From: Desertimonas flava
GTDB taxonomy: Bacteria; Actinomycetota; Acidimicrobiia; Acidimicrobiales; Ilumatobacteraceae
Length of the DNA: 64,000 nucleotides
Assembly: GCF_003426815.1 (NCBI RefSeq)
Contig: NZ_QKYK01000003.1
Span: forward strand, 124,001-188,000
Reading direction: 5' to 3'
Shown: piece after piece, positions 20,938-57,883 of the stretch
Layout of the letters: every line of letters starts with the position of its first letter
Numbering within the stretch: position 1 is the stretch's first letter
Made by a program: the position numbers and the translations under genes
The notes under the pieces: model-generated
Databases searched by the model: none
Told to the model about the DNA's origin: nothing
Seen by the model: only the letters and a program-made list of their open reading frames with translations

Positions 20938-20997
20938 GCTCGCACGATACTGCTAACGCATGATGATGCACGACGAGTCGGCTAGGGTGAGCGGCCG
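20937..20997. promoter_or_regulatory. Divergent leaderless promoters, aminotransferase/methyltransferase
   Basis: On the minus strand TATCGT lies 6 nt before ATG 20937. On the plus strand TAGGGT (20983-20988) lies 8 nt before GTG 20997. The shared middle carries GCATGATGATGCA, a sequence that recurs near other starts. Neither gene has a clear ribosome binding site, so leaderless transcription is likely. Confidence 0.5.
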
Positions 20998-21656: not shown

Positions 21657-21658
21657 CG

Positions 21659-22297: not shown

Positions 22298-22308
22298 CAG
22301 GAGCCCCG

Positions 22309-23984: not shown

Positions 23985-24766
23985 CGCCGCTACTCCCGCT
24001 CGACGACTCGCCCGAAGAGCCGTTCACGATCGTCGTGCCGTCCAAGGGACGACCGAACAAGCTGCTCGTCAAGAAGATGCTGCCCGCCGGGTCGTTCAAG
24101 GTGCTCGTCGAACCGGGCGAGGCAGGCGCCTACCGGGAGGCGAACCCGGACTGCGAGATCGTCGAGCACCCGAAGGAGGCGTGGCCGTACTCCCGCAAGG
24201 TGCAGTGGGCGTATGAGACGTTCGGGTCGATCGTGTCGATCGACGACGACATGGAACGCTGCTGGCACTACGAGCACGGCCTGGGCGACCCCGAATGCAC
24301 GCTGTCGAAGGAAGACACCGTCCGGTGGATCTCCCGAACGATGTGGGAGGCCCGCCAGGCCGGCGCGCACCTCGTCGGGTTCTTCGCCTCCGACATCCGC
24401 AACTATGACGCGCAGAACCCGTTCAAGCTGGTCGGCTGGATGCCCGCCTCCGCGATGGGGATCCTGTCGGGCTCGAAGCTGCACATGCATTCCGACATCG
24501 TCTGTTCGGCCGACTACTGGATTTGCCTGCTGAACATGTACGAGCACCGGTACATGTGGGTCGACAACCGGATCGTCCCGGGCTTCGTCGAGGGCAAGAC
24601 GTTCAAGACGGAGGGTGGCATTTCGTCGTCGCGGACGATCGAAGCGGAAAAGCATGATTTCGAACTGCTGGAACGTTACTTCGGCAACGTCGTCCGCAAG
24701 AAGCAGGGGACGGTGCGGGCGAAGGTGAAGCACATCTGGCAGAAGCAGATCTATCCGCCGTTCTAG
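23972..24766 (+). CDS. TET-associated-type glycosyltransferase (TAGT-like)
   Basis: 264 residues from GTG 23972 (13-nt overlap with the previous gene). GT-A fold start FTIVVPSKGRPNKLLVKKML (18-37), then FKVLVEPGEAGAYREANP, and IVSIDDDMERCW with the metal-binding DDD at 91-93. This order resembles the glycosyltransferases described beside TET/JBP dioxygenases in phages, thought to glucosylate oxidised pyrimidines in DNA. No TET/JBP-like dioxygenase is recognised here, so the acceptor could be another modified base, a protein or a small molecule. Confidence 0.75.
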   Translation: MAVLTPLLPLDDSPEEPFTIVVPSKGRPNKLLVKKMLPAGSFKVLVEPGEAGAYREANPDCEIVEHPKEAWPYSRKVQWAYETFGSIVSIDDDMERCWHYEHGLGDPECTLSKEDTVRWISRTMWEARQAGAHLVGFFASDIRNYDAQNPFKLVGWMPASAMGILSGSKLHMHSDIVCSADYWICLLNMYEHRYMWVDNRIVPGFVEGKTFKTEGGISSSRTIEAEKHDFELLERYFGNVVRKKQGTVRAKVKHIWQKQIYPPF

Positions 24767-24795
24767 CCGGCTACTGTCGCACCGTCAGCTACACT
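24767..24795 (+). promoter_or_regulatory. Dyad-type promoter P7
   Basis: CCGGCT, a 17-bp spacer beginning ACTGTCGCA, then TACACT (24790-24795). Near twin of P6 (both have TCAGCTACACTTA and AGTAGGGACCA). It would transcribe the gene at 24839 after a leader of about 35 nt. Confidence 0.45.
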
Positions 24796-24838
24796 TAAGG
24801 AGTAGGGACCAATCGCCTACGGGATAGAAAGGCTGACT

Positions 24839-25510
24839 GTGGGATTCAACTTCATGGGACAAAAGACGCTGCGGGGCTTCGCGCTCGGCGAAGTCGTGTC
24901 GGCGCTGCAGAAGGCGGTGAGACGTGGCGATGTAGCCCAGTCAGTGGCGTGGTGTGCCGAGCTCGACCAGTCCGGGTTCGGGAACTACGCGTGGAAGCGG
25001 CTGCTGATCATCATGTCCGAAGACATCGGCCCGGCGTGGCCCGAGGGACCGGCTGTCATCGCCGCGTTGCGGCGCAGCTGGGACGAGTACATTGAGGGCG
25101 CCAAGGGCCGCAAGGGCGGGTCGGAGCGGATCTTCATCACGCACGCCGCGATCCTGCTGGCGAGGGCGCCGAAGAGTCGGATCGTCGATGAAGCGATTTG
25201 GGCGACCTACGGGCGGCCCGAGCCGATGTTCGGGGAGATCCCCGACGAGGCGCTCGGCGTGTTCACGCAGCGCGGCCGGTCGATGGGTCGCAAGCTCGGC
25301 ACCCCCGAAGGCGACCGGTTCTGGTACGACGTGGAATCGGTGCTCGTCAACGAGGTCGAGTTCGACAACCCGTTCCACGACCGGTATCTGATCGGCGAGC
25401 AGGCGGCATTCGACCAACAGGGCGCGTCATCGGGCGGCTCGAGGACCGAGGCCGCAGGCTCGGCGCGTGCGGCAGCGAAGAGTGACGACGCTCAGCTGTT
25501 CGACGCGTAG
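24839..25510 (+). CDS. RarA/MgsA C-terminal-domain-like protein
   Basis: 223 residues from GTG 24839, with GAAAGG 6 nt upstream; ATG 24854 is possible. The sequence ALQKAVRRGDVAQSVAWCAE, KRLLIIMSEDIGPAWPEG and ITHAAILLARAPKSRIVDEA mirrors the helical C-terminal part of RarA/WRNIP1 AAA+ clamp-loader relatives (GDVDAALYWLARM ... RRLVRIASEDIG ... APKSN), but the ATPase domain is missing. It may work on or with the phage DnaN clamp at 30234. Overlaps the minus-strand CapD gene by 19 nt. Confidence 0.65.
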   Translation: MGFNFMGQKTLRGFALGEVVSALQKAVRRGDVAQSVAWCAELDQSGFGNYAWKRLLIIMSEDIGPAWPEGPAVIAALRRSWDEYIEGAKGRKGGSERIFITHAAILLARAPKSRIVDEAIWATYGRPEPMFGEIPDEALGVFTQRGRSMGRKLGTPEGDRFWYDVESVLVNEVEFDNPFHDRYLIGEQAAFDQQGASSGGSRTEAAGSARAAAKSDDAQLFDA

Positions 25511-26493
25511 GCGGCCGAGGTGGCGCCCGCGAGGATCCGTTGGATCTCGCGGGCGCGGCCGGCCTGCGACACCGCGGGCACGCGTACGTGGGTGATCGAC
25601 GGGTTCGGGCCCGGCTCGGCGGTCTCGTTCGGGCCGACCAGGAGCTCGGAGAGACGCTCGCCGGGTCGTAGCCCGGTGATGGCGATGTCGATGCCGCCGC
25701 CGGCCTCGGCGATCAGCAGGGTGGCGACGTCGTGGATCTTGACGGGGTCGCCCATGTCGAGGATGCAGGTGTCGCCAGAACGGCCGATGCCGCCCGCGGT
25801 GAGGACGAGAGCGACGGCCTCCGACAGCGTCATGAAGTAGCGGTCGACGTCGGGGTGGGTGACGGTGACGGGGCCGCCGTGGGCGATCTGGCGGCGGAAC
25901 ACCTCGGTGATCGAGCCGCCCGAGCCGAGCACGTTGCCGAACCGCGTGGACAGCCAGCGGCCCTGCTGGCCGAGAGCGGCAGCTGCGACGATGCGTTCGG
26001 TGAGCCGCTTGGTGCGGCCCATGACGCCGATCGGGTCGGCGGCCTTGTCGGTCGAGATGTTGACGAACGTGTCGACGCCGACGCGTCGGGAGGCTTCGAC
26101 GACGTTGATCGTGCCGTGCACGTTCGTCTTGATCGCCTCGATCGGGTGCGCTTCTCCGAGCACGACGTCTTTCATCGCGGCGGCGTGAAACACGACGTCG
26201 GGCCGGATCGCGGCGAACAGCTGGTCGAGACGGCCCGGGTCGCGGATGTCGGAGAGGACGAGTTCGGGGCGGACGAGGTTGCAGGCCGGGTCGAGCCGGT
26301 AGAGGGTGCGGCAGAGGTGCTCGTCGTCGCGGTCAAGCATGAACGGCAGCCGGCCGGTGCGTTCGGCGATCTGGACGCACAGTTCGCCGCCGATCGAGCC
26401 GCCGGCGCCGGTGACGAGGATGCGCTTTCCGTTGAGCCATCCGGTGTCGATCGGAGAGGCATCCCGGTGTCGTCCCAACTCGTCGCAACGCAT
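25492..26493 (-). CDS. CapD/PseB-type nucleotide-sugar 4,6-dehydratase
   Basis: 333 residues, extended SDR. NAD-binding GAGGSIG at 29-35, AAMK at 105-108 and STDK at 147-150, where most SDRs have YxxxK; this is the signature of soluble UDP-GlcNAc 4,6-dehydratases (PseB/FlaA1/CapD core). The membrane part of full-length CapD is absent, giving the short PseB-like length. Its 4-keto-6-deoxy product is the natural substrate for the aminotransferase at 19792. Monocistronic on the minus strand with a leaderless-type start (TATCAT 8 nt upstream). Confidence 0.9.
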   Translation of the reverse strand: MRCDELGRHRDASPIDTGWLNGKRILVTGAGGSIGGELCVQIAERTGRLPFMLDRDDEHLCRTLYRLDPACNLVRPELVLSDIRDPGRLDQLFAAIRPDVVFHAAAMKDVVLGEAHPIEAIKTNVHGTINVVEASRRVGVDTFVNISTDKAADPIGVMGRTKRLTERIVAAAALGQQGRWLSTRFGNVLGSGGSITEVFRRQIAHGGPVTVTHPDVDRYFMTLSEAVALVLTAGGIGRSGDTCILDMGDPVKIHDVATLLIAEAGGGIDIAITGLRPGERLSELLVGPNETAEPGPNPSITHVRVPAVSQAGRAREIQRILAGATSAAYASNS

Positions 26494-26533
26494 GACGCAT
26501 CATGATACTTGTTGCACATCTATGCTGGGGGTG
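26493..26533. promoter_or_regulatory. Divergent leaderless promoters, dehydratase/PIG-L
   Basis: Minus strand: TATCAT 8 nt before ATG 26493. Plus strand: TATGCT (26521-26526) 6 nt before GTG 26533. The two starts are 39 bp apart and the promoters interleave around GCATCATGATAC, so expression in the two directions is probably mutually exclusive or jointly controlled. Confidence 0.5.
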
Positions 26534-27183
26534 TGGAACTCCCCGACCGGATCCTGGTAGTCGCGCCACACGCCGACGATGAAGTGATCGGCTGCGGCGG
26601 TCTGCTGCACCGGGCGGCCCGCGACGGCGCTGAGACGACCGTGGTCGTGGTCGCCACCGACGACGAGGAACGCACCGTCGAGCTCAAAGAGGCCTGTCGG
26701 GTGCTTGGCGTCGCCAACGTCGAGGTGCTGTTCGGCCCGATGCCGTTCATCGACGACCTCGACGACAGCCGCATCGTCTCCGCGATCGACGACGCGCTCG
26801 CCCGCCACGCTCCACGGCTGGTGCTCGTCCCGTCGCAGGCCGGCTACCACCAAGAGCACCGACGGGTCGCCGGTCTCGCCGTCTCAGCGACCCGGCCGGG
26901 CGGCGGCCGCACGTTTGGCCACGCGCCGCAGTCGGTCTGGTACTACGAGGCGCCCGCCGACGTGTCGTCGCCGACCGGAGCCTGGTCGCCGACCTTGTAC
27001 GTCACGCTCGACGACGTTGATGTCGCCGCGAAGTGCGACGCGATGCTCGCCCACGCCTCCCAGGTGCGGCCGTACCCGTCGGAACGGTCCACGGAGGCGC
27101 TCCGGTCGCTGGCCGTGCTGCGTGGCTGCCAAGTCGGCGCCGCCTTCGCCGAGGCGTACGCCCCGCGGCGCCAGGTGTTCTGA
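26533..27183 (+). CDS. PIG-L-family N-acetylglucosamine deacetylase
   Basis: 216 residues from GTG 26533. PHADDE at 12-17 and HQEHRRVAG near 107 provide the zinc-binding His/Asp/His set of PIG-L/MshB deacetylases, which remove acetyl from GlcNAc-containing lipids, thiols or nucleotide sugars. It overlaps the WbqC-like gene (TGATG). With the dehydratase, aminotransferase and glycosyltransferase nearby it suggests a free-amino sugar intermediate. Upstream in-frame TTG codons exist but the TATGCT -10 favours 26533. Confidence 0.88.
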   Translation: MELPDRILVVAPHADDEVIGCGGLLHRAARDGAETTVVVVATDDEERTVELKEACRVLGVANVEVLFGPMPFIDDLDDSRIVSAIDDALARHAPRLVLVPSQAGYHQEHRRVAGLAVSATRPGGGRTFGHAPQSVWYYEAPADVSSPTGAWSPTLYVTLDDVDVAAKCDAMLAHASQVRPYPSERSTEALRSLAVLRGCQVGAAFAEAYAPRRQVF

Positions 27184-27860
27184 TGCGCCTCGCAGCTCAC
27201 CAGCCGCTGTTCTGGCCGCCGATGTACCTGATGCAGCGGTGGCTGCACGTCGACACGCTGGTGTGGCTCGGCTCGGTGCAATTCACCCGCAAGTCCCGCG
27301 ACGAGCACGGCCGCAACCGGCCGACCGGCCAGAACCGCATCGTGCTCGGCGACGCAGCCGGCAACGACGTCGACGTGACCGTCCCGGTCGGGGCGTCACG
27401 CCAGCCGATCGACGACACGCCGCTCGGCGACTGGGCCGACTCGTTCATCTCGACGGTTTGCCACCTGTATCCCGAGACGCCCGAACGCGACGTCGTCTGC
27501 CATGCGGCCGCCGAGCTCGAAGGCGAACCGCTCGGCAGCGTGAACCGGGCGACATGGTCGCTGACGATCGGCCTGCTCGACGTCAAGGCGCCTCACGTCG
27601 TCGACGACACCAGCCTGCCGCCGGTCGACGACCGGGTCGACCGGCTCGTCACGTACTGCCGTCAGCTGGGCGCGACCACCTATGTCGCAGGCAAGCCCGC
27701 CATCAACGCCTATCTGGACGCCAACGCGTTCGCCGCTGCCGGCGTCACTCTCACCCCCCAGGATTGGACGCCTCCGCACGGCGTTCAGGCGGGCCGGTCA
27801 GTGCTCGACTCGATCCTGCGCCGCGGCGTCGACCGCACACGGAAGGCGTTGGGATGGTGA
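27183..27860 (+). CDS. WbqC-like family protein
   Basis: 225 residues. MRLAAHQPLFWPPMYLMQRW, the VWLGSVQFTRKSRDEHGRNR region and RLVTYCRQLGATTYVAGKPA follow the WbqC family, found in O-antigen and other surface-sugar clusters and thought to act as a sugar-modifying amino- or acyl-transferase; the reaction is not firmly known. TGATG coupling to the PIG-L gene implies sequential steps on the same compound. It overlaps the terminase small-subunit-like gene by 7 nt. Confidence 0.8.
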   Translation: MRLAAHQPLFWPPMYLMQRWLHVDTLVWLGSVQFTRKSRDEHGRNRPTGQNRIVLGDAAGNDVDVTVPVGASRQPIDDTPLGDWADSFISTVCHLYPETPERDVVCHAAAELEGEPLGSVNRATWSLTIGLLDVKAPHVVDDTSLPPVDDRVDRLVTYCRQLGATTYVAGKPAINAYLDANAFAAAGVTLTPQDWTPPHGVQAGRSVLDSILRRGVDRTRKALGW

Positions 27861-28564: not shown

Positions 28565-30126
28565 CCGCCGCCGTCCTCGACCGAACTAGCCAGCGGATCG
28601 CCAAGCGGGCCTGGCTCGCCACGCCAGACACGTTCGGCCGGCGGCTGTCGCACGGCACGCTCGTCGCGCCGTCGCATCTGCGGCTGCTGTCGTGGCTGCT
28701 GTACCTGTCGTCGATCGGCTACGTCAGGCGGCTGACCATCGCGATGCCGCCCGGCCACGCCAAGTCGACGGCGACGTCGCGTTGGTTTCCGGGCTGGGAC
28801 CTCGAACTGCGGCCCAAGCACAAGATCATCCTGGCGTCGTACGAATCGACGCTCGCGGTCGAGCACGGCAAGGCCGTCCGCGAGATGCTGATGGAGAACG
28901 CCGACAAGCTGCACGTCCGGTTGAAGGCCGACTCCCAGGCCGCCGACCGGTGGGTGACGATGGCCGGCGGCGGTCTGCGCACCGCCGGCGCCGGCGGTTC
29001 GATCACCGGCCGCCGCGCCGACATCTTCATCGTCGACGACCCGTTCAAGGGGTTCGACGACTCGCATTCGCCGACGCAGCGCGGCGCGGTGTGGAACTGG
29101 TATCGGTCCGTCGCCCGCACCCGTCTGCTGCCGGGCGGCTCGATCATCATCGTGCAGACCCGCTGGCATCCCGAAGACCTGATCGGCATGGTGTCCGAAC
29201 AGCCGAACTGGGTGCATCTGCGGCTGCCGGCGATCGCCGAAGAGGACGAGTCGATCGAGACGGTGGTCGGCGCCGAGTTCGTCGCCAAGTGCGCCCGCGA
29301 CGGCGTCCCGCTGCCCGCCTGGCATCGGGCAGAAGGCGAACCGTTGTGGCCGTGGCTGATCGAACCGTCCGACGTCCTGGCCGGCGTCCCGTGGTATTCG
29401 GCCGACGAGATGGCCGAGATCCGCGACGAGGTCGGCGAGTACGTCTGGCAGACCCTGTACCAGCAGAACCCGACCGTCATCGACGGCGACATGTTCAAGC
29501 GCGACAACTGGGTGCGTGTCGACGCCGCGCCGGCTGGCTTGCAGGTCGTGCGCCGCTGGGACATGGCCGCCACCGAAGGCGGCGGCGACGCGACTGCCGG
29601 CGTGTTGATGGGCCGCGCGAAGAACGGCCGCGTGTACATCTTGGACGTCAAGCACGAGCGCTACGGGCCGTCGGGCGTGGAGCGGCTGATCGCCAACACC
29701 GCCGAAGAGGACGCCGAGAAGTACGGCCGCAAGATGCCGATCCTGATCGAGCAGGAAGGCGGCTCGGCCGGCAAGAACGTCGCCGAGCACTACGCCGCGA
29801 CGGTGCTGCCCGGGTTCAACGTCCGCTTCGAAGGGTCGACCGGCGACAAGACGGTCCGCGCGTTGCCGTTGGCCGCCCAGGTCGAATCCGGCAACGTGTA
29901 TCTGGTGCGCCGCGAGGGAGACCGCGGCCCGGAAACACCGGGCTGGTGGTCGAAGCTGATCGACGAGGCCGCCGCGTTCCCGAACGGCGCACACGACGAC
30001 ATCGTCGACGCGGCGTCGCTCGCCTACATGGATCTGCTCCGCCTCGCCAAGACCCGCAAGAAGGCGTCGACCGCTCGGGCGACCGGGTCGATCACAGCGC
30101 AGCCGATGCGCGCCGGCATCCGATAA
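28561..30126 (+). CDS. terL: Phage terminase large subunit
   Basis: 521 residues from GTG. ATPase domain with Walker A PPGHAKST (63-70) and Walker B IFIVDDPFKGF near 155; the motor coupling region RLLPGGSIIIVQTRWHPEDL near 195. The RNase H-like nuclease domain starts at RRWDMAATEGGGD near 325 and ends with NGAHDDIVDAASLAY near 475, giving the expected acidic residues. Complete, so packaging is probably functional. Unusually it is followed by a DNA clamp gene rather than a portal gene. Confidence 0.93.
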   Translation: MTAAVLDRTSQRIAKRAWLATPDTFGRRLSHGTLVAPSHLRLLSWLLYLSSIGYVRRLTIAMPPGHAKSTATSRWFPGWDLELRPKHKIILASYESTLAVEHGKAVREMLMENADKLHVRLKADSQAADRWVTMAGGGLRTAGAGGSITGRRADIFIVDDPFKGFDDSHSPTQRGAVWNWYRSVARTRLLPGGSIIIVQTRWHPEDLIGMVSEQPNWVHLRLPAIAEEDESIETVVGAEFVAKCARDGVPLPAWHRAEGEPLWPWLIEPSDVLAGVPWYSADEMAEIRDEVGEYVWQTLYQQNPTVIDGDMFKRDNWVRVDAAPAGLQVVRRWDMAATEGGGDATAGVLMGRAKNGRVYILDVKHERYGPSGVERLIANTAEEDAEKYGRKMPILIEQEGGSAGKNVAEHYAATVLPGFNVRFEGSTGDKTVRALPLAAQVESGNVYLVRREGDRGPETPGWWSKLIDEAAAFPNGAHDDIVDAASLAYMDLLRLAKTRKKASTARATGSITAQPMRAGIR

Positions 30127-30142
30127 TTCTTCGCCGCCCCTC

Positions 30143-30171
30143 TTGCCTTCTGTAGCCGCTTCGACTACAGT
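30143..30171 (+). promoter_or_regulatory. Dyad promoter P1 (before dnaN)
   Basis: TTGCCT, 17 bp, TACAGT. Left arm TTCTGTAGC is degenerate, right arm CTACAGTAG is perfect and overlaps the -10. The leader of about 55 nt contains hairpin H2. Confidence 0.7.
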
Positions 30172-30192
30172 AGAGGGAGTCAACAAAAACAC

Positions 30193-30218
30193 CCCGTCGG
30201 GAAGGGAAGCCCGACGGG
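30193..30218 (+). promoter_or_regulatory. Leader hairpin H2 (loop AAGGGAAG)
   Basis: A 9-bp stem CCCGTCGGG/CCCGACGGG around AAGGGAAG, then GAAAGGAACC (30222-30231) and ATG 30234. The longest stem of the family. Confidence 0.8.
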
Positions 30219-30233
30219 ACCGAAAGGAACCCC

Positions 30234-31424
30234 ATGACAGCCACCGATACCACTGCCGTCGTCGACGCGCCCGCCGAGACCGGCGAGGTCGCCGACACCA
30301 AGCCGAAGCGCAAGGGACGCGCTGCCGCCCGCAAGCGGCTCGCGTTCACCGCCGACCGTGAGCCGCTGCACAAGGCGCTCGCGGGCGCCGTGCTCGCCAT
30401 CCTGCCCGGCGGCCTCCCCGTCCTCGCCGACGTCAAGCTGACCGTCGCCCGCAACCGCCTGACGATCACCGCCACCGACCTCGCGTTGTCGATCGAGACC
30501 ACAATCCCGGTGAAGGCCGCCAAGGCCGGCACCGTGCTCGTGCCCGGTCGGCTCCTGTTCGAGCTCGTGCGCTCGGCCGGTGACGAGATCCGCATCGCCG
30601 AAGGCGACGGCGAGTGCGACTTCACGTCGGGCGACTTCCAGGCCACGTTGAACACGCACGACGCCGCCGACTTCCCGGTGCCGCCCCCGGTCGACGGCGA
30701 CCCGCTCGAGGTCGACTCCCTGCTGCTGTTCGCCGCCGTCGCCCGCACCGTCAAGGCCGCATCGAACGACCCGGTCCGCCCGATGCTCAACACGCTGTTC
30801 ATCCACAACGTCGACGGCCAGTCCCGCCTCGTCGCCACCGACTCGTACCGGCTGCACGTCACCGACCTCGGCGAGAAGATGACCGCCGGGGACGTCGTCA
30901 TCCCGGCCCGCTTCGCCACCGTGGCGTCGAGGGTGCTGGCCGGCGAGTCCGACAACGTCGCCGTCACGGTCACCGCATCGCACATCGCCATGTCGACGCC
31001 GTCGACGACGGTGATCGCCCGGATCGTCGAGGGCGACTACCCGAACTACGCCGGCCTGTTCCCGGCAACCTCGGACCTGCACGTCACCGTTGATCGTCGA
31101 CCGCTCGCCGCCGCCATCACCCGCATGAGGGCGCTGATCGACGCCGACACCACCGTTGTGCTGACGTTCGAGGCCGAGCAGGTGACCGTGTCGGCGTACG
31201 GCGTCGACGTCGGCAACGCTGCCGAGACGATCCGCTGTCAGAACGGACCCGACGAGGCGATGCGGATCGGGTTCAAGCCCGAGTACCTCCGAGATGCGCT
31301 GGCCGTCCAGGTCGCCGACTCGGTGACGTTCGCGATGCGCGATGCCATCAAGGCCGTCGTCATCGAGGTCGCCGGCAACACGGCGGTCCGCCACCTGCTG
31401 ATGCCGGTGCGAGTCCCGGGATGA
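30234..31424 (+). CDS. dnaN: Phage-encoded DNA polymerase III beta sliding clamp
   Basis: 396 residues. After a 35-residue basic, low-complexity start it shows three clamp domains: KLTVARNRLTITATDLALSI near 65, FPVPPPVDGDPLEVDSLLLF near 150 with RPMLNTLFIHNVDG and LVATDSYRLHVTDLG near 200, and a third domain ending HLLMPVRVPG, the conserved clamp C-terminus. It should tether DNA polymerase and other clamp-binding proteins. Few phages carry a bacterial-type clamp. No phage DNA polymerase is visible here. Driven by promoter P1 through hairpin H2. Confidence 0.92.
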   Translation: MTATDTTAVVDAPAETGEVADTKPKRKGRAAARKRLAFTADREPLHKALAGAVLAILPGGLPVLADVKLTVARNRLTITATDLALSIETTIPVKAAKAGTVLVPGRLLFELVRSAGDEIRIAEGDGECDFTSGDFQATLNTHDAADFPVPPPVDGDPLEVDSLLLFAAVARTVKAASNDPVRPMLNTLFIHNVDGQSRLVATDSYRLHVTDLGEKMTAGDVVIPARFATVASRVLAGESDNVAVTVTASHIAMSTPSTTVIARIVEGDYPNYAGLFPATSDLHVTVDRRPLAAAITRMRALIDADTTVVLTFEAEQVTVSAYGVDVGNAAETIRCQNGPDEAMRIGFKPEYLRDALAVQVADSVTFAMRDAIKAVVIEVAGNTAVRHLLMPVRVPG

Positions 31425-31741
31425 GTGAGGCCGCCTTCGGGGCGGCCACGGCGCCGCAGCTGTTCGACGTCACCGTGTACGTCGAACAGCTGCCGGACCG
31501 GCTGCTGCCGTTCGATCCGCTGCTCGAGGCGTGGGGCGCGCACATGGGTGCGATCGCCGACGCGATGCACGTCGACGTCCGCACGGTGCAACGCTGGCGG
31601 GCCACGGGCCTGTCCTACGACCTGGCCGACGAGCTCGCCGTCCGTGCCGGGTTGCACGCCTTCGACGTGTGGGGCGACCTGTGGTTCGTCGGCACCGACC
31701 TCGAGACCGAGGCGGGCGACGACGCGGCTCTCGCCGCATAA
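31421..31741 (+). CDS. HTH protein, paralogue of the one at 43682
   Basis: 106 residues, ATGA overlap with dnaN. The C-terminal half (MHVDVRTVQRWRATGLSYDL and ADELAVRAGLHAFDVWGDLW) forms an HTH and shares its layout (W.A.GL..D.AD..AVR.G.HP..IW) with the protein at 43682. Probably a DNA-binding regulator. Target unknown. Confidence 0.68.
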   Translation: MSEAAFGAATAPQLFDVTVYVEQLPDRLLPFDPLLEAWGAHMGAIADAMHVDVRTVQRWRATGLSYDLADELAVRAGLHAFDVWGDLWFVGTDLETEAGDDAALAA

Positions 31742-31745
31742 TCTC

Positions 31746-31774
31746 TTGCTTACTGTAGCCGTATGGACTACAGT
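31746..31774 (+). promoter_or_regulatory. Dyad promoter P2
   Basis: TTGCTT, 17 bp, TACAGT, with arms TTACTGTAG and CTACAGTAG. GTG 31782 lies exactly 7 nt after the -10, so the mRNA should be leaderless. Confidence 0.75.
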
Positions 31775-31781
31775 AGATGTT

Positions 31782-31985
31782 GTGACCACATTCCACGAAT
31801 CCACCGTCGCCAACGTCAACGAAGGGGACGTCATCAGGCTCCACTGGGGCAAGCCTTTCCGGGTCAAGGCCATCCGACCCAACGATCTGCGACTCCAAGC
31901 CGTCGTCATCGACAGCCTGGACGGAGACCACTGGCCGGTCAAGACGACCGACACGGTCACCATCGTCCGCCGCTCCTGGGACTGA
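31782..31985 (+). CDS. Small hypothetical protein from a leaderless mRNA
   Basis: 67 residues from GTG 31782, the base where transcription from P2 should begin. Beta-rich look (VNEGDVIRLHWGKPFRVKAI, LQAVVIDSLDGDHWPV). Function unknown. Confidence 0.65.
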   Translation: MTTFHESTVANVNEGDVIRLHWGKPFRVKAIRPNDLRLQAVVIDSLDGDHWPVKTTDTVTIVRRSWD

Positions 31986-32003
31986 CCTCCCGACAACCCA
32001 CTC

Positions 32004-32027
32004 GCTGCCGGAAGGGAAGCCGGCAGC
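32004..32027 (+). promoter_or_regulatory. Leader hairpin H3
   Basis: Stem GCTGCCGG/CCGGCAGC, loop AAGGGAAG, then GAAAGGAACC (32034-32043) and ATG 32050. It lies in a run-on transcript from P2. Confidence 0.78.
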
Positions 32028-32049
32028 CAACCCGAAAGGAACCCACCCG

Positions 32050-32343
32050 ATGACACTCATCGACTCCGGCTACGACCGCTGGCTCACCCACCCGATCGAC
32101 GTCGCCTACGGCAGCAGCGACCGCATCACCGTCCTCGCCGAACACGTCGACGTCACCGACGCCGACTACATCGACTGGCGAGACGAATGGGCGGCCGACA
32201 ACCCGCCGGCCGACGGTGACACCGCCGACGTCGATCAGCGCTGGCAGGACTCGCCCGACTTCGAGCGCTACCTCGAGTGGGCGGAAGAGCAGCAGCGTGA
32301 CGCCGACCTCGACTACTGGGCGGAAGCGAGGTCGGGCCTGTGA
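32050..32343 (+). CDS. Small acidic hypothetical protein
   Basis: 97 residues, Asp/Trp-rich (DYIDWRDEWAADNP, FERYLEWAEEQQRDADLDYW). Acidic DNA mimicry is conceivable but not shown. Start set by hairpin H3 and GAAAGGAACC. Confidence 0.68.
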   Translation: MTLIDSGYDRWLTHPIDVAYGSSDRITVLAEHVDVTDADYIDWRDEWAADNPPADGDTADVDQRWQDSPDFERYLEWAEEQQRDADLDYWAEARSGL

Positions 32344-32627
32344 GCGCCGCATCCGACTACGGCGTGGCGATCGTTGATCGCCTGATCCGGCCGCCGCTCG
32401 ACGCTGGCGATCGCAACGTGTTCGCCGAGGGCGACCCAGCCACCGCCGTCGGCGACGTCATCGCCTACCTACTGCACTGGGCCGAAGCCAACGGCGTCAA
32501 CGAGTCGTCGATCGGCGACGTCCTGGAGCTCGGCCGCAGTCACTGGGAAGCCGAACGTGGCGCCGGCGACGACCTCGCCCAAGGCTACGAGGACCGCTAC
32601 CACGAACTGATCAGCCTGTTGACATGA
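32340..32627 (+). CDS. Small hypothetical protein
   Basis: 95 residues from GTG (GTGA overlap). Helical (VGDVIAYLLHWAEANGVN, DDLAQGYEDRYHELISLL). Not recognised. Confidence 0.62.
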   Translation: MSAASDYGVAIVDRLIRPPLDAGDRNVFAEGDPATAVGDVIAYLLHWAEANGVNESSIGDVLELGRSHWEAERGAGDDLAQGYEDRYHELISLLT

Positions 32628-32713
32628 GCGCACCAAGCGATCGGTTGCAAACGCCGGCGTCGATCGAGCTCGTGCTGCCGCCCGCCGAGGTCGTGAAGGT
32701 CGAAACCTACTGA
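32624..32713 (+). CDS. 29-residue micro-protein in an overlap chain
   Basis: ATG 32624 overlaps the previous stop (ATGA), and its TGA overlaps the next ATG (TGATG). The chain suggests a translated coupling ORF. Function unknown, and the small size keeps confidence low. Confidence 0.4.
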   Translation: MSAPSDRLQTPASIELVLPPAEVVKVETY

Positions 32714-32982
32714 TGCTCGGCCGACGCTCGTACCCGTGCGGCTGCCCGACATCGACCCGGATCGTGAACCAGACGCCGGGCCGGTACCGGCGCGACTGCC
32801 CGGTCTGCAGCGCGAGGTGGGTGCTCGTCCTGTCGGTCGCCCGCCACGCCAGCCAGATCGTGGGCCGAGAAGTGCTCCGCATTGATTGGGAGCCGGCCGG
32901 CCCACCGCAACTATCGATCTCTCCCGCACCCGCGGGGGCGAAACAGCCCGGAGGGAAGCCGGGCAAGAAAGGAACCACATGA
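32713..32982 (+). CDS. Small CxC/CxxC protein
   Basis: 89 residues. YPCGCPTSTR and RDCPVCSARW look like a zinc ribbon. The last 20 codons overlap hairpin H4 and the next ribosome site, so the C-terminus (PGGKPGKKG) is compositionally odd. Confidence 0.6.
   Translation: MLGRRSYPCGCPTSTRIVNQTPGRYRRDCPVCSARWVLVLSVARHASQIVGREVLRIDWEPAGPPQLSISPAPAGAKQPGGKPGKKGTT
32946..32964 (+). promoter_or_regulatory. Leader hairpin H4
   Basis: Stem GCCCGG/CCGGGC, loop AGGGAAG, then GAAAGGAACC (32967-32976) and ATG 32979. This copy is inside the preceding coding sequence. Confidence 0.72.
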
Positions 32983-33185
32983 GGACACGAACTGTCCGGC
33001 TCGACGGCGCCACCAAGCCGATGTGCCTGGTCGCCGTCGACCAAGGCCTCGTCGACCACCTGTCGCTCATCGTCCACCACCTTGGCGGCACGTTCAATGT
33101 CGCCGCGGATGAGATCCCCGAACCATGGCGCGACCTGTACGAGAGCGTGATGGCGTCGGCCATCGTCGAAGAGACGGAGGGCTGA
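32979..33185 (+). CDS. Small hypothetical protein
   Basis: 68 residues from ATG 32979. Sequence of mixed character (PMCLVAVDQGLVDHLSLIVH, EIPEPWRDLYESVMASAI). Not recognised. Translation is supported by hairpin H4 and GAAAGGAACC. Confidence 0.62.
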   Translation: MRTRTVRLDGATKPMCLVAVDQGLVDHLSLIVHHLGGTFNVAADEIPEPWRDLYESVMASAIVEETEG

Positions 33186-33212
33186 CGTGACGAGCCTCGT
33201 CGGGCTGAGTGC

Positions 33213-33234
33213 TGTCACCCCTTCGAGCAAGAAT
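33213..33234 (+). promoter_or_regulatory. Box-type promoter for the structured RNA
   Basis: TGTCACCCC (33213-33221), 7 nt, AAGAAT (33229-33234). Same geometry as the leaderless promoters at 44270, 49581 and 52251, but no start codon follows. Transcription would begin near 33242, at the edge of the structured stretch. Confidence 0.5.
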
Positions 33235-33241
33235 GTCCAAG

Positions 33242-33488
33242 AGCCCTCCACCACCAATCACGGCGGTGACAGACGGTGGGGGCTACGGACGGTGGAGACA
33301 CCGGTCGGGCGCGGAACCCGGCCGGGTCTCTGCCTGCAGTGGGGCGGGACGCCCGCAACGTCCCGCGGCGGAAACCCACTGCTCCCGGAGGTTGGGGTCG
33401 GTTGTCGGCGGCGACTGACCCCAACCTACGGATCATCCACCCATCGACGCCTGGGAAGTGGCGTCGCCCCCTTGAAAGGAACCCTGTG
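33242..33488 (+). ncRNA. Candidate structured RNA or leader
   Basis: The 303 nt between genes (33186-33488) contain no convincing gene but nested perfect stems: CTCCACC/GGTGGAG (33246-33252/33291-33297) enclosing TCAC/GTGA; the palindrome ACCCGGCCGGGT (33316-33327); GCAGTGGG/CCCACTGC (33336-33343/33375-33382) enclosing GGGACG/CGTCCC (33346-33351/33359-33364); GGTTGGGGTC/GACCCCAACC (33390-33399/33417-33426) enclosing GTCG/CGAC; and hairpin H12 just before the ribosome site of 33489. A promoter sits at its left edge. It may be a regulatory leader or a free RNA. No known riboswitch class was recognised. Confidence 0.6.
33445..33466 (+). promoter_or_regulatory. Leader hairpin H12 (variant loop TGGGAAGT)
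   Basis: Stem CGACGCC/GGCGTCG, loop TGGGAAGT, then GAAAGGAACC (33474-33483) and ATG 33489. Same architecture with a changed first loop base. Confidence 0.68.
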
Positions 33489-34370
33489 ATGGCAACCATC
33501 AACCGGTACATCGTCGAGTACGACGACGGCGAATCCGACGAGTGCGACACGTTCGCCGAAGCCGACGCGCTCGCACGGAGGCTCCGCGGCAAGGTCGTCG
33601 AGTACGAGTACGAGTACTCCGACTCGATCGTCGTCGCCGACCACACGGCGACCAGCGACCGCGGCGAGGCCGAGCCGGCAGCGAACCCGCCGGCCGTCTA
33701 CCCCGACGGCACGAAGCTGTGGCGGGCCCCGTTCGACTTCGCCGACGGCACGGCCGGCGAGGTGACGATCACCGAGTCCGACGGTCCCGACCATGCCGTC
33801 GTCGTGCTGGTCGACACCGAGTTCGAACCGGACGGCTCCGACGGCACCCGCGGCCTGCGGGTGTACGTCAACGACGGCGCCGTGTTCGTCGGCGTCGAGC
33901 GGCAACCGCCCGATGGTGAGCCTGCTCCCCCGCCGCCGCACTCGCGGACGTTGACGGTCGCGGACGGCTGGGAGATCGAGGTGACCGACTCGCACTCGGC
34001 GTTCATCCGCTACCGAGGCACCGATCTCGCTGCGCTGTGGGCGCCGGATCGTGACGGCGAAGTGAACCCGGTGCTGGAGGTCGCCCACGAAGCCAGAGTG
34101 TTCGGCGCCGCGAAGCACGGCGACCAGACCGAGTGGTCCGACCAGATGAACCACTCGATCGACCTGGCAGCGCTCGCCGGCAGCGTCGACATCGGCATCG
34201 CCGAACTCGAGGTCCGCCGAGCGCGGCCCGTCGAGATGTGGCGACAGGCCGTCGCCGACGGTGAGACAACCGAGAGTTACGAAGCCTGGCTGCACCCGGC
34301 CGTGTGCGAGGCCCGCGCCACTGCCGTCGTGGCTGCCAAGGCCCGTTGGGGAGACAAGGCGGTCCGGTGA
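33489..34370 (+). CDS. Phage hypothetical protein with DUF-like repeats
   Basis: 293 residues, start fixed by GAAAGGAACC and H12. The N-terminal 55 residues (YIVEYDDGESDECDTFAEAD) look like a small alpha-beta fold; a middle beta region and a Pro-rich linker (about 138-150) follow; the C-terminal half (ADGWEIEVTDSHSAFIRYRG ... AVADGETTESYEAWLHPAV) is mixed. Not recognised. Confidence 0.7.
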   Translation: MATINRYIVEYDDGESDECDTFAEADALARRLRGKVVEYEYEYSDSIVVADHTATSDRGEAEPAANPPAVYPDGTKLWRAPFDFADGTAGEVTITESDGPDHAVVVLVDTEFEPDGSDGTRGLRVYVNDGAVFVGVERQPPDGEPAPPPPHSRTLTVADGWEIEVTDSHSAFIRYRGTDLAALWAPDRDGEVNPVLEVAHEARVFGAAKHGDQTEWSDQMNHSIDLAALAGSVDIGIAELEVRRARPVEMWRQAVADGETTESYEAWLHPAVCEARATAVVAAKARWGDKAVR

Positions 34371-34537
34371 TGGATCCCGTCGTCGTCGCGGTCGTGTGCG
34401 GGTTCTGCCGCAACGCCGAGGAACATCTGCTGGTCGCCGGCCGGGCCCTGACGCGATGCCGGAAGTGTCGGTCGAACAATCTGATCGACCCGGCCACCGG
34501 CGAGTTCGTCGGCCCGCCCCAGGACGGGTTCCTGTGA
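34370..34537 (+). CDS. Small C4 zinc-ribbon protein
   Basis: 55 residues from ATG 34370 (TGATG). CGFCRNAEEHLLVAGRALTR then CRKCRSNN: two CxxC knuckles 20 residues apart. Precedes the helicase gene with an overlap. Function unknown. Confidence 0.68.
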   Translation: MDPVVVAVVCGFCRNAEEHLLVAGRALTRCRKCRSNNLIDPATGEFVGPPQDGFL

Positions 34538-37203
34538 GCGCCACGCTGTTCGACGTTGAGCCCAATGTCATGCGTGTGGTGCATGATGATGTCGTGGACG
34601 CGCGTGCCGAGTTGAAACGGTACCTGCACGCCGCGATCGGTCGGGTCGCGGCGAACTGCGACGGTGCCCGCGAGCAGGACGGGATCGGGTTCGACGGCTC
34701 CGACAGCAAGCCGGGCCGCATGATCGCATCGTGTCCGCCCGAGACGTGGTCCGATCAGATGGCGTCGCAGGCCGGGCTGTGGTGCCGCAAGTACGCCCGC
34801 CAGATCGGCCCCGACGCCAACGGCCTCGCCGACGAGGCGGCCAAGACGTTCGGCACCGTCACGGCGAAGTCGGCTGACGTGAAGGCCATCACCGCCGCCG
34901 AGGGCGGCTTCATCGTCCGGTTCGGCTACAACCCCGACGTCTCCGACGCCTTGCGCGAGATGGTGGTCGGCGCCCGCTGGAACGGCGACAAGCGCGCCTG
35001 GATCGTGCCCCGCCAACAGGGCGTCCGGCTCGAAAGCTTTGCCGCCCGGTACGGGTTCACGCTGTCGAACGCAGCCCACGCCCTGCTGACCGCGTCGCGG
35101 CACATGCAGACCGCCGACGGCAAGGTCGGCTTCGACGGCACCGACGTCACGATCGCGTTCGCCGACGTCCCCGACGCCGCAGTCCGCAAGGCCGTCAAGG
35201 CGTTGCCGGGCTGCCGGTTCGACTCGGTCGCCAAGCTGTGGCGGCTGCCGCCACGCTACGTCCGCACGGTCCGTGACCTCGCCGCACGGTTCGAGTGGGC
35301 GACGACCGGCGACTTCGACGCTCTGCCCGACCTCGACCCTGACGTCGTCGACGTCAAGGTGCGCGCCGACGGCACCACGTTGCTGGTGTCGTTCCCGTAC
35401 GACAAGCAGCTGATCGACATCATGAACCAGGTCGGTGCCCGCTGGGACGGACGCGCCGAGGTGAAGGCGTGGCGGATCCCGGCCGAGGCCGGCTTCGATC
35501 TGCTCTCGGTGCTCGAGCACCAGAAGGTGAAGGTCGCCGACGACGACTCGACCGGCGACCTGTTGGACCAGGCCCGCCAGATGCTGGCCAGGATCACGAA
35601 CTCGCGGGCGCTCGACGCCGACTTCGAGGTGTCCGGCATGGCGTGCGACCTGTATCCGTTCCAGCGGGCCGGCGTGAAGTACGTCGTCGAGGCCGGCGGC
35701 CGCAGCCTGATCGGCGACGAGATGGGCTTGGGCAAGACGCCTCAGGGCCTCGCCGCGCTGCAGGCGATGAACGCGTGGCCCGCCGCGGTGCTGGTGCCGA
35801 ACGTCGTCAAGGTGAACTGGGTGCGCGCCGCGCACAAGTTCTTCCCGCATCTGCGCGTTGTCGCCCTGTACGGCATGTTGAAGCCCGAGTTCGCCCGCCA
35901 GCTGGTCCGCATGATCGAAGTCGGCCAACCCGACGGGCTGCTGGTGCCGTACACGATGTCGCCCGGCGAGGCCCGCTCAATCAAAGTCACCGACCGGGCA
36001 TCGGCGGTCGAGGCGTACACGCTCCTGACGCAGGCCGATCTGATCGTCGTCAACTACGACGTGTTGGGTCCGACCGAGTTGACCGAGAAGGAGACGCTCG
36101 TCGGCAAGCGACCCGATCCGGGTTGGGTGCCGGTGTTGAAGGCGCTGCCTTTGAAGGGCATCGTCGCTGACGAGTCGCACGGTCTGAAAGACCCCAAGAC
36201 GCTGCGGACCCGGGCGTGCATCGAAACGGCCCGGTCGCTGCCCGACGGCGCCGCGAAGATCGGCATGTCCGGCACGCTGGTGTTGAACCGACGTGTCGAG
36301 GTTGCCGCCCAGCTGGACTTCATCGGCATGTTGGACGAGTTCGGCGGCTACACCGCCGTCAAACAGATGCCTGATCTGGCCCGTCGGCTTCGAGCCCGCT
36401 GCATGGTTCGCCGTGACAAGGCCGAGGTGCTGCCCGAGCTCCCGCCCCGTCAGCACGAACCGATCGTGTTGAACCAGTCCGAGCTCGACGCCAAGGTGAT
36501 GGCCGAGTACCGCCACGCCGAGCGCGACCTGCTCGACTTCCTGGCCCGCCGCGCGGCGGAGATGGCCCTCGAGGCCGGGCTGGATCCGACGTCGGCAGCG
36601 ATCGAAGCCCGCATGAAAGCGGCCGGCGCCGAGTTCCTGATCCGCATCGGTGTGCTGCTGCGCTTGGCGTTGCGAGCGAAGAAGAAGGCGGCTCGCCGCT
36701 GGATCGACGAGTTCGCCAAGACCGGCGAGAAGCTGCTGGTGTTCGGTTCGCACCTTGAGCAGCTGGATGAGTTCGCCGCTGAGTTCGGCGCCCCTGAGAT
36801 CAAGGGCGGCGTGTCACCGGAGCGGCGCATGGAGATCGTCGACGACTTCCAGGACCCGAACGGCGCCCAGTTGTGCTTCCTGCAGATCCACGCCGGCGGT
36901 GTCGGCCTGACGATGACGGCAGCGAGCAACGTCCTGTTTTTGGAGCAGGCGTGGTCGCCGATGTTGCACGACCAGGCGATCGACCGCTGCTACGGCCGTC
37001 TCGACGGCGACCCGCACGGCGCGGTCGGCTGGTATCTGGTCGCTGAGGACACGATCGAAGAGTGGGTGTCGCAGCTGCTCGCGGAGAAGCGCATCGAGTG
37101 TGCTGACGCGCTCGACGGTGACGTGACCGACGGCCAGATCGAGTCGACGTCGGTGTACTCCGACCTCGTCGGAATGTTGGTCCGCAAAGCGGTCCAACCA
37201 TGA
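34534..37203 (+). CDS. SNF2-family helicase with N-terminal HARP-like repeats
   Basis: 889 residues from GTG 34534. Three similar 55-residue units near 120-165, 200-245 and 275-325 (GARWNGDKRAWIVP, CRFDSVAKLWRLP, GARWDGRAEVKAWRIP) resemble the HARP domain of SMARCAL1-like annealing helicases. The SF2 core has LYPFQRAGVKYVVEAGG, Walker A DEMGLGKT near 395-402, DESH near 546-549, GMSGTLVLNRR, and motifs V-VI HAGGVGLTMTAASNVLF and DQAIDRCYGRLD near 820. It may remodel forks or reanneal strands in phage replication. The enzyme looks complete. Confidence 0.9.
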   Translation: MSATLFDVEPNVMRVVHDDVVDARAELKRYLHAAIGRVAANCDGAREQDGIGFDGSDSKPGRMIASCPPETWSDQMASQAGLWCRKYARQIGPDANGLADEAAKTFGTVTAKSADVKAITAAEGGFIVRFGYNPDVSDALREMVVGARWNGDKRAWIVPRQQGVRLESFAARYGFTLSNAAHALLTASRHMQTADGKVGFDGTDVTIAFADVPDAAVRKAVKALPGCRFDSVAKLWRLPPRYVRTVRDLAARFEWATTGDFDALPDLDPDVVDVKVRADGTTLLVSFPYDKQLIDIMNQVGARWDGRAEVKAWRIPAEAGFDLLSVLEHQKVKVADDDSTGDLLDQARQMLARITNSRALDADFEVSGMACDLYPFQRAGVKYVVEAGGRSLIGDEMGLGKTPQGLAALQAMNAWPAAVLVPNVVKVNWVRAAHKFFPHLRVVALYGMLKPEFARQLVRMIEVGQPDGLLVPYTMSPGEARSIKVTDRASAVEAYTLLTQADLIVVNYDVLGPTELTEKETLVGKRPDPGWVPVLKALPLKGIVADESHGLKDPKTLRTRACIETARSLPDGAAKIGMSGTLVLNRRVEVAAQLDFIGMLDEFGGYTAVKQMPDLARRLRARCMVRRDKAEVLPELPPRQHEPIVLNQSELDAKVMAEYRHAERDLLDFLARRAAEMALEAGLDPTSAAIEARMKAAGAEFLIRIGVLLRLALRAKKKAARRWIDEFAKTGEKLLVFGSHLEQLDEFAAEFGAPEIKGGVSPERRMEIVDDFQDPNGAQLCFLQIHAGGVGLTMTAASNVLFLEQAWSPMLHDQAIDRCYGRLDGDPHGAVGWYLVAEDTIEEWVSQLLAEKRIECADALDGDVTDGQIESTSVYSDLVGMLVRKAVQP

Positions 37204-37236
37204 CCAGTTGTATGCATGTGGGACATGATGATGTAT

Positions 37237-37455
37237 CATCGGTGTCACTGGGAAGCAGGACAGGGTCCCATCGGACACCGACGCACGGTAGCGCCGATGG
37301 TCCAAGCGCTTCCGCCCGGGCAGTCCGCCGCTCCGGGCGGGAGCGCTGGCTCAGTGCCTCCCTCCCCTACCTGGTCGCCAGAACGTGCCGCCAACAGGCG
37401 CACACGAAGCCTCATCGAAGACCCGCCGGGTCACCAACCAGGAAGGACCAGCCGC
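37237..37455 (+). ncRNA. Candidate structured intergenic RNA
   Basis: The 252 nt between the helicase gene and GTG 37456 hold stem CGGTGTC/GACACCG (37240-37246/37274-37280) enclosing TGGGA/TCCCA, then a 14-bp near-perfect stem at 37306-37319/37333-37346. CATGAT (37224-37229) upstream is a possible -10, followed by the palindrome GATGAT-GT-ATCATC. No good ORF fits. Leader or small RNA; the 3' end is undefined. Confidence 0.45.
37306..37346 (+). terminator. Strong 14-bp hairpin
   Basis: Arms GCGCTTCCGCCCGG and CCGGGCGGGAGCGC pair with one G-T, around a 13-nt loop. It may terminate the helicase operon or be a domain of the structured RNA. There is no T-run. Confidence 0.5.
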
Positions 37456-37674
37456 GTGAAGCACTGGGTAGTGATGGAAGCTCCGATCGGGGCTCGCATG
37501 GTGTGGGCCTGGGGCCTCGTCGGCGACGAGCCCGGGTTCGAGCAGACGTACTTCACCGAGACCGACGGCCACACGCCGGCCAACATCGACGACGCCCCGT
37601 CGAAGCTTGGGGCCGTCCTGTTCGTTGTACCGGCTGCTGCTGGTGGCCTCGAACTTCCGCCTGTCGATGATTGA
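37456..37674 (+). CDS. Small hypothetical protein
   Basis: 72 residues from GTG 37456, behind GGAAGGACC (37441-37449). Starts VKHWVVMEAPIGARMVWAWG; compact and aromatic. Not recognised. A longer frame from 37216 exists but crosses the structured region. Confidence 0.6.
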   Translation: MKHWVVMEAPIGARMVWAWGLVGDEPGFEQTYFTETDGHTPANIDDAPSKLGAVLFVVPAAAGGLELPPVDD

Positions 37675-37798
37675 TCGGCGCCGCCGGCTGAACGAGGCGC
37701 TGGCCACCGCGGTCTGCGCCGGCGCGGCGCTCACCGCGGCGGCGCTGGCCTGGTCGGCGTTATGCGTGGCGGTGTGGGCGACGAGGGTCGCTCTCTGA
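37667..37798 (+). CDS. 43-residue membrane protein
   Basis: ATG 37667 overlaps the previous gene by 8 nt. A basic start (MIDRRRRLNEA) leads to one hydrophobic helix (about 12-38). Its TGA overlaps the next ATG. Function unknown. Confidence 0.5.
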   Translation: MIDRRRRLNEALATAVCAGAALTAAALAWSALCVAVWATRVAL

Positions 37799-37977
37799 TG
37801 GGCCGAACCGAGACGCTCGACCCGCTGTCACAGCAGGTCGAAGAAGCCTTCCGTGCGTTCGCGTTCGGGTCGAGCGACCCGGCCGTGCGCGAGCAGAACC
37901 GGATCCGCTACGAGGGCTTATTGGCCCGCTACCGACGAGAGAAGGGATACGACCGTGACAACGGAGCCCATGCCTGA
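37798..37977 (+). CDS. 59-residue helical hypothetical protein
   Basis: ATG 37798 by TGATG. Helical, charged (SQQVEEAFRAFAFG, EQNRIRYEGLLARYRREKGY). Overlaps the next gene by 23 nt. Not recognised. Confidence 0.55.
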   Translation: MGRTETLDPLSQQVEEAFRAFAFGSSDPAVREQNRIRYEGLLARYRREKGYDRDNGAHA

Positions 37978-38560
37978 CGTGCTCACCAACGGCTTGCTCG
38001 GCGACGTCGCCGACCGGCTGGTCGAGGGCGTCAAGATCCGCAAGAAGCATGACGGCCCGACGATGGCGGTGCGTGCCGTCGACTGGGACCTGACCGACCG
38101 GAACAGCCCGACCGTCACGGTGAGGGGAGCCTTGCTCGACGGCGGACCGGCGTTCGAACGTGACGGAGTCGAGGCCCGTTGGCTGATCCGATCCGACGAG
38201 CACGTGTTCTTCGCCACCGGGCCGCGCCCTCCCGACGCCAATGGCACGCTGACGATCCCCGCCCAACTCGTCACCGACGACACGGCCGACAGCGAGCTCG
38301 TGGACGCGCTCCGCGATCAGATGGGCCGCACCGTCCTCACCGAGCCGGCGCCGCCGCCGATCGTGGCGCCGCCGGCGCCGCGGTTCCCCCCGCGAGGCGA
38401 GTGGCAACGCGTACAGGTGAGGCTGCCGCCCGGCCTGCTCGAGCGGCTCGAGGTGGCCGCCGATGATCGAGTGGTGGGCCGCGACCTCTTGATGGCCCAC
38501 CTGGTCGCCGACGGGCTGACTCGCCTGCATTCTTCCGGGTTTCCGGCCGCCACCCCTTGA
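37955..38560 (+). CDS. Hypothetical protein with C-terminal RHH-like motif
   Basis: 201 residues from GTG 37955 after GAAGGGATAC. The middle is beta-like (MAVRAVDWDLTDRNSPTVTV); a Pro/Ala linker (about 135-150) precedes EWQRVQVRLPPGLLERLEVA, which looks like a ribbon-helix-helix. Possibly a DNA-binding regulator. Its stop codon lies inside the -35 of promoter P3. Confidence 0.62.
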   Translation: MTTEPMPDVLTNGLLGDVADRLVEGVKIRKKHDGPTMAVRAVDWDLTDRNSPTVTVRGALLDGGPAFERDGVEARWLIRSDEHVFFATGPRPPDANGTLTIPAQLVTDDTADSELVDALRDQMGRTVLTEPAPPPIVAPPAPRFPPRGEWQRVQVRLPPGLLERLEVAADDRVVGRDLLMAHLVADGLTRLHSSGFPAATP

Positions 38561-57716: not shown

Positions 57717-57730
57717 TCGCCCCTGATCGC

Positions 57731-57747
57731 CGGCGAGGGAAGCGCCG
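57731..57747 (+). promoter_or_regulatory. Orphan leader hairpin H8
   Basis: Stem CGGCG/CGCCG, loop AGGGAAG, then GAAAGGAACC (57753-57762), but no start codon follows before the terminator at 57768. Likely left behind when a gene was lost. Confidence 0.65.
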
Positions 57748-57767
57748 ACGTCGAAAGGAACCCACCA

Positions 57768-57869: not shown

Positions 57870-57883
57870 CCGAAAGGAACCCG

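Follow-up and report, generated by a model that had tools for sequence, protein, structure and literature searches.

The arrangement described here has its nearest described counterpart in the SAS and ESAS elements of the Cluster K mycobacteriophages, as far as the available parts of the two reports go (PMC3203893, PMC12699233). The SAS is a 13-bp repeat, GGGATAGGAGCCC, which lies just upstream of start codons in 11–19 copies per genome, and the ESAS elements are imperfect 17-bp inverted repeats of conserved sequence found upstream of about half of the SAS copies (PMC3203893). The available part of that report argues against RNA pairing of the repeats. The T4 gene 43 operator is a protein-bound hairpin, and its top, including the loop, is conserved between T4 and RB69, according to the accessible text of PMC3014915. 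Stem-loops in the 5′ UTRs of recA and vacA slow mRNA decay (PMC7509114, in the part available). RNA-based replication origins occur in non-RepA Cluster A mycobacteriophages, and the known cases in the accessible part of PMC7157519 adjoin parABS in integrase-less prophages.

The DNA analysed is a stretch of 64,000 nucleotides of Desertimonas flava (the window), located at C23:124001-188000 in a 6.2-Mb genome of 73 contigs, together with the next 40 kb rightwards, which gives 104 kb in all. A prophage extends rightwards from about window position 5264; its IMG/VR record is 98,280 bp long, and the ends calculated from the offset of that record are 5264 and about 103,543. The prophage encodes a tyrosine integrase, terminase subunits, a DNA clamp, a helicase, a DNA methyltransferase and RtcB. 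A tRNA-Trp gene about 90 bp past the called right end (19630-19704 of L133, within the next 40 kb) is a candidate for the prophage attachment site. A cassette within the prophage (19792-27860) encodes a DegT aminotransferase, two methyltransferases, a GNAT-domain protein, a TET-associated-glycosyltransferase-like protein, a sugar-nucleotide epimerase family protein, a PIG-L deacetylase and a WbqC-like protein, and besides this cassette there is a cytosine methyltransferase-like gene at 40880; they might serve DNA hypermodification or the synthesis of surface sugars. A search of the genome for TET/JBP gave no match.

A simple gene caller of our own leaves a gap of 303 nt (33186-33488) between prophage genes. 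The gene that follows it encodes a protein for which PHROGs, Pfam, NCBIfam and PDB sequences gave no match, and the predicted structure of this protein is unusable (mean pLDDT of 42.9). We consider it slightly more likely than not that the RNA predicted to start in this gap is a structured 5′ leader of about 247 nt belonging to that gene, which would influence both the lifetime of the mRNA and its translation. The features on which this reading is built are listed in Table 1.

Table 1. Features of the structured gap and its surroundings in window coordinates; the transcription start and the hairpins are predicted.
Feature	Position	Strand	Description
-35-like box TGTCACCCC	33213..33221	+	Nine copies in all, each in the same direction, within the prophage or at its edge
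-10-like AGAATG	33230..33235	+	ANNRTS fits eight of nine boxes
Predicted transcription start	33242 (range 33241-33243)	+	Predicted from the box-to-ATG spacing at six sibling boxes
Hairpin Ha	33242..33284	+	10 bp with a single bulged base; its first base is the predicted start of the RNA
GGTGACAG	33265..33272	+	Inverted copy of CTGTCACC; arm of an 8-bp inverted repeat
Hairpin Hb	33291..33334	+	18 bp, one bulged A, three G-U pairs
Hairpin Hc	33336..33382	+	8 bp enclosing 8 bp, with an 8-nt one-sided loop
Hairpin Hd	33385..33431	+	21 bp, three G-U pairs, one G.A mismatch
Hairpin He	33445..33466	+	CGACGCC UGGGAAGU GGCGUCG; member of the GGGAAG-loop family; taken as the H12 of the sequence-only reading
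Ribosome-site motif GAAAGGAACCC	33474..33484	+	Start-associated
Downstream gene	33489..34370	+	293 aa

The sequence-only reading had placed a box-type promoter at the start of the structured region, and the box TGTCACCCC is borne out as a recurring motif. Its nine copies in the 104 kb, at 8090, 33213, 44270, 48519, 49581, 52251, 65568 (L132 1568), 102426 and 103563, are all on the + strand with none on the other strand, and the last of them falls just outside the prophage, 20 bp beyond its called end. All nine copies are followed by an A at the ninth base, and eight also by a T four bases further on. The pattern TGTCACCCC-N8-ANNRTS, in which the last letter S was loosened to take in 33213 and which the box at 102426 does not fit, has ten matches genome-wide, of which seven fall within the prophage, two lie elsewhere and one is 20 bp outside the right end of the prophage. 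An ATG follows the box after 19-21 nt in six of the nine cases (the box at 48519 has an additional ATG at 15), and all six matches to TGTCACCCC-N16-21-ATG in the 6.2 Mb of the genome fall within the prophage. Four of the six box-linked ATGs, at 8120, 44299, 49610 and 52280, start predicted genes or extend them in frame; the ATG at 65596 opens a frame of 220 codons and that at 48548 opens 15 codons only. Judged from this spacing, the genes behind the six sibling boxes are apparently leaderless. Because of the box-to-ATG distance at these boxes, the transcription start in the gap is predicted to lie within three nucleotides (33241-33243), 247 nt upstream of the ATG of the downstream gene. This length is out of pattern with the six siblings, which counts against a leader. 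A scan of 30000-38000 for sigma-70-type promoters found none, suggesting that the box is not of the sigma-70 type. No phage-borne sigma factor was found within the prophage span in a search with Sigma70_r4_2 only, in which 150 of 224 candidates were scored, and the PMC literature yielded no published description of the box. A second promoter-like type, with a TTG-containing -35, CTACAGT at -10 and an upstream inverted CTACTGTAG-like half, occurs at about 30150, 31750, 38560, 57445 and 59903 and at about 7640 of L132 in the next 40 kb; it looks like a repressor operator.

Folding of the gap against dinucleotide-shuffled sequence agrees with the strong structure that had been claimed. The MFE of 33186-33490 is -168.5 kcal/mol compared with a shuffle mean of -135.3 (z of -6.2), and none of 100 shuffles folds as low. 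With 40 shuffles, the gap itself (33186-33488) has a z of -7.5, the lowest of 72 tests covering 36 gaps of at least 50 nt on two strands, and no z lower than -5.66 was reached by 182 tiles, each 300 nt long and compared with 20 shuffles. The predicted transcript alone, from 33242, has a z of -4.79. Two other gaps are also structured: the gap 37204-37455 after the helicase gene contains a G+C-rich hairpin of about 17 bp (z of -5.7 for an overlapping tile and -2.7 for the whole gap), and the gap 4052-4233, left of the prophage, contains an 18-bp hairpin with a z of -5.8 on the - strand and is flanked by an ECF sigma gene (3113-4051, with a weak SnoaL-like tail) and a divergent gene.

An open frame of 100 aa (33187-33489, GTG to TGA) spans the gap, overlaps the next ATG and has a purine-rich stretch upstream, as a protein-coding gene would. 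Its G+C contents at the three codon positions are 0.66/0.66/0.72, compared with means of 0.70/0.51/0.86 (sd 0.04-0.06) for 19 similarly sized genes, and neither Pfam nor NCBIfam gave a match for it. The region is therefore probably non-coding, as the sequence-only reading had it, and a protein-coding gene here is extremely unlikely. In agreement with the statement that no known RNA class was recognised, Rfam 15 covariance models at the gathering threshold gave no match within the window. Three sub-threshold local Rfam matches were judged to be chance. A 94-nt tRNA-Arg called by ARAGORN on the - strand (33297-33390) is probably false, since there is no Rfam tRNA match even at an E value of 5. 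Type III toxin-antitoxin RNAs are tandem repeats before a ToxN-like gene; this class was rejected because the gap has no tandem array, only four short two-copy direct repeats, and the downstream protein matches no family.

The reverse strand folds almost equally well (z of -5.7 and -5.6 for the gap, and -4.74 for the reverse of the transcript) as would be expected of near-perfect palindromes, and so the strand is not given by energy alone. All six non-Watson-Crick pairs of the helices read as G:T on the + strand and none as A:C, which favours an RNA of the + strand, though the count is biased, since the + strand fold that supplied the helices permits G-U; the single G.A mismatch in Hd is strand-neutral. 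These observations bear on the possibility that the gap is a DNA element, consisting of protein-bound palindromes, a replication or packaging site or mobile-element remnants. Palindromes that fold similarly on both strands would suit such an element, as would the nearby genes for the clamp (30234) and the helicase (34534). However, there is no iteron-like array, the only direct repeats being the four short ones, there is no second copy in the genome, the non-Watson-Crick pairs are G:T, and the cumulative G+C skew makes no major turn here, so that a DNA element is quite unlikely. The same neighbourhood, with a possible non-coding RNA near replication genes, recalls the Cluster A prophage RNA origins, which also combine an actinobacteriophage non-coding RNA with replication functions (PMC7157519, in part). 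Unlike those described in the available text, the RNA predicted here has no parABS neighbour, the ParB-like genes being at least 11 kb away, lies in a prophage with an integrase, and leads into a gene. Together with the absence of a major skew turn, this makes an RNA-based replication origin very unlikely.

When folded from 33242, the RNA pairs from its first base onwards and forms five consecutive hairpins, Ha to He, whose main helices have mean pair probabilities of 0.97-1.00. Pairing in this MFE structure thus sets in at the predicted +1, and Ha is also contained in the fold of the whole gap. The stem GCAGTGGG/CCCACTGC (8 bp) encloses the stem GCGGGACG/CGTCCCGC (8 bp), and the 11-bp stem AGGTTGGGGTC/GACCCCAACCT becomes 21 bp long if three G-U pairs and one G.A mismatch are allowed. 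The gap also contains the 7-bp stems CTCCACC/GGTGGAG and CGACGCC/GGCGTCG, the latter taken as H12, and ACCCGGCCGGGT, a 12-base palindrome. Not all of these stems can exist together, because the palindrome and CTCCACC/GGTGGAG exclude better helices, and the outer 8-bp stem of the sequence-only reading, CTGTCACC/GGTGACAG, is unlikely in the RNA because it pairs the promoter box itself. This inverted repeat is perhaps an operator, or a chance occurrence. On read-through transcripts it could form a pseudoknot with Ha, which is impossible in an RNA from the box promoter.

Such alternative pairings are what a cis-acting switch or translational operator that responds to a ligand or to the gene product would use. 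Mutually exclusive stems do exist, since CTCCACC can pair with GGTGGAG or with GGTGGGGG, and in a read-through RNA CTGTCACC can pair with GGTGACAG or with an upstream GTGAC. Against this, a single structure dominates, Rfam has no match, and the ribosome site of the downstream gene is held, and only partly, by a weak 3-bp helix (P of 0.72). A switch is therefore about as improbable as the DNA element.

The last hairpin, He, belongs to a family of the prophage. The + strand of the 104 kb contains the motif GAAAGGA[AT] 18 times and the - strand contains it once, and GGGAAG is present within 45 nt upstream of 17 of the 18 + strand sites and absent at the - strand copy. Family members in the window lie at 18538, 30204, 32014, 32953, 33453, 38618, 39091, 44669, 57737, 57857, 60223 and 61873, and five more GGGAAG-loop hairpins in L132 and L133 (the next 40 kb) bring the total to 17. 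All 17 hairpins share GGGAAG as an invariant core of the loop, and their stems differ in sequence, with uninterrupted lengths of 3-10 bp; the stems at 60223 and 73414 are interrupted after 3 and 4 pairs. Over seven stem positions, 95% of the opposed bases pair (113/119), compared with 55% for shuffled 3′ arms at fixed loop limits and 69% when the shuffled arms, like the real ones, are given their best loop limits, and none of 10,000 shuffles reaches 95% under either scheme. Each of the stem pairs 3 to 7 is represented by two to four Watson-Crick types. Genome-wide, all 16 matches to AGGGAAG-N8-30-GAAAGGA are in the prophage and on the same strand, and He, whose loop is UGGGAAGU and not (A)AGGGAAG, is the 17th copy. 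There is thus good evidence that the 17 hairpins act as RNA hairpins placed before start codons. The GGGAAG hairpin behaves like a start-associated element, being repeated, phage-specific, on the same strand and at a fixed place. The copy at 57737 (hairpin and GAAAGGAACCC, 57717-57883) lacks an immediately following start codon, and a complete copy lies 120 bp further on; a gene may have been lost here, leaving this copy as a scar. In L049, L055 and L122, too, a GGGAAG hairpin precedes an AAAGGA site.

The likeness to SAS/ESAS is that of a short conserved sequence before many starts, nearly all in one orientation and confined to some of the genes (PMC3203893, PMC12699233, in the parts available). 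In contrast to the SAS, the motif here is GAAAGGAACCC and not GGGATAGGAGCCC, by comparison by eye with the consensus given in PMC3203893. In contrast to the ESAS of the available text, the loop core is fixed here and the stems vary yet pair, and nearly every site has its hairpin. The PMC literature, judged by title, contained no related description of a GGGAAG loop.

The promoter, the five hairpins, the ribosome site and the gene are consecutive, with no + strand terminator-like site found in 30000-38000, and so a structured leader is the simpler reading. Points against it, besides its length, are the similar folding of the reverse strand, the negative sigma-70-type scan of 30000-38000, the partial pairing of the ribosome site and the deviating loop of He. 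The RNA had been proposed to be a free-standing non-coding RNA, a view that is not upheld beyond the leader itself because the predicted transcript runs into the GGGAAG hairpin and GAAAGGA. A separately acting RNA would require that the transcript from 33242 be trimmed or stopped after Hd (at about 33432) to act in trans, for instance by sequestering an RNA-binding protein as a decoy. Its own promoter and unusual stability fit this idea, and a cut or stop in the unpaired 13-nt linker between Hd and He would suffice to separate it from the mRNA. The missing terminator-like site and the unbroken passage into an ordinary start-associated hairpin with its ribosome site speak against it, making a separate RNA unlikely.

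If the RNA is a structured leader, a plausible sequence of events is as follows. The phage-specific promoter TGTCACCCC-N8-ANNRTS would start the RNA at about 33242, and the RNA would fold into a hairpin from its first base, three long G+C-rich hairpins and then the GGGAAG hairpin ahead of GAAAGGA. The 5′-terminal hairpin and the array behind it may deny 5′-dependent nucleases a single-stranded end, thereby giving a long-lived message. A hairpin at the very first base protects an mRNA best, as in the ompA type. Since 5′ UTR stem-loops can slow decay, a long-lived message is suggested by analogy with the recA and vacA leaders, which share the 5′ UTR hairpins, here predicted from sequence; unlike those in the available part of PMC7509114, the leader proposed here has more hairpins and a phage-specific promoter. 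The GGGAAG hairpin may keep the ribosome site open, or a phage protein may bind it, much as in the T4 gene 43 operator with its conserved loop, and such a protein would jointly control translation at this site and about 16 others. As in the T4 gene 43 and gene 32 operators (PMC3014915, in part), a structured phage leader would thus lie ahead of the ribosome site. The predicted leader differs from those operators as they appear in that text in having one hairpin type for 17 sites and a much longer array. An extension of this proposal is a two-layer control of the prophage, in which a phage-only promoter class for mostly leaderless genes is combined with a phage-only hairpin code (constant loop core, variable stem) at 17 sites read by a phage RNA-binding protein, and the RNA from 33242, which has both layers and four further hairpins, is the hub linking them, as a protein-sensing or titrating leader or as a released RNA. 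We regard this extension as unlikely.

The phages, plasmids, IMG/VR records (among the matches listed) and GTDB genomes searched revealed no relative of either the leader or the hairpin family. Searches of the region by blastn against phages, with and without flanks, and against plasmids gave nothing usable. Among 100 genomes, its own included, the one other match is of 34 nt (E value of 7.8e-4) in the genome G010; it lies within a stretch that we take to be hydrogenase genes and was judged to be chance. A single-sequence covariance model of 33285-33432, whose alignment consists of two identical rows, found its own genome only among 397 genomes under stricter filters, and within the 104 kb it found itself, its own palindromes on the - strand, or matches with E values of 0.15 or worse. 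Scans for the hairpin and ribosome motif in IMG/VR (among the matches listed; 18 stretches in the second scan) and for the promoter pattern in IMG/VR (44 stretches) gave, besides the prophage's own record, scattered single matches that were judged to be chance, and so were the 46 stretches from a hairpin and ribosome motif scan of the GTDB genomes, none of which is titled as an actinobacterium. The protein of the downstream gene gave nothing usable in tblastn against phages and one weak match (E value of 8.9e-4, 70 residues) among 198 genomes of the order. A search of IMG/VR for close relatives with this protein, the helicase and the clamp returned the identical record only, and the helicase matched only its own among 395 genomes of the class, its own included, at 1e-60. 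Against phages, the helicase matched 56 records and the clamp 69, all below 60% identity, and the highest identities among the 20 matches listed for each are 32% for the helicase and 30% for the clamp.

Structured phage leaders are already known as a kind, and the phage-wide system of hairpins and promoters is the more interesting part of this locus. The leader predicted from 33242 is the most elaborate example seen here. Short phage control elements close to start codons have been described as SAS/ESAS with no known mechanism in the available text, where RNA pairing is argued against, whereas an RNA-level mechanism is testable here because the hairpins covary within one genome. The prophage has no close relative in the collections searched, and its leader appears to expose an unusual, phage-wide control system.
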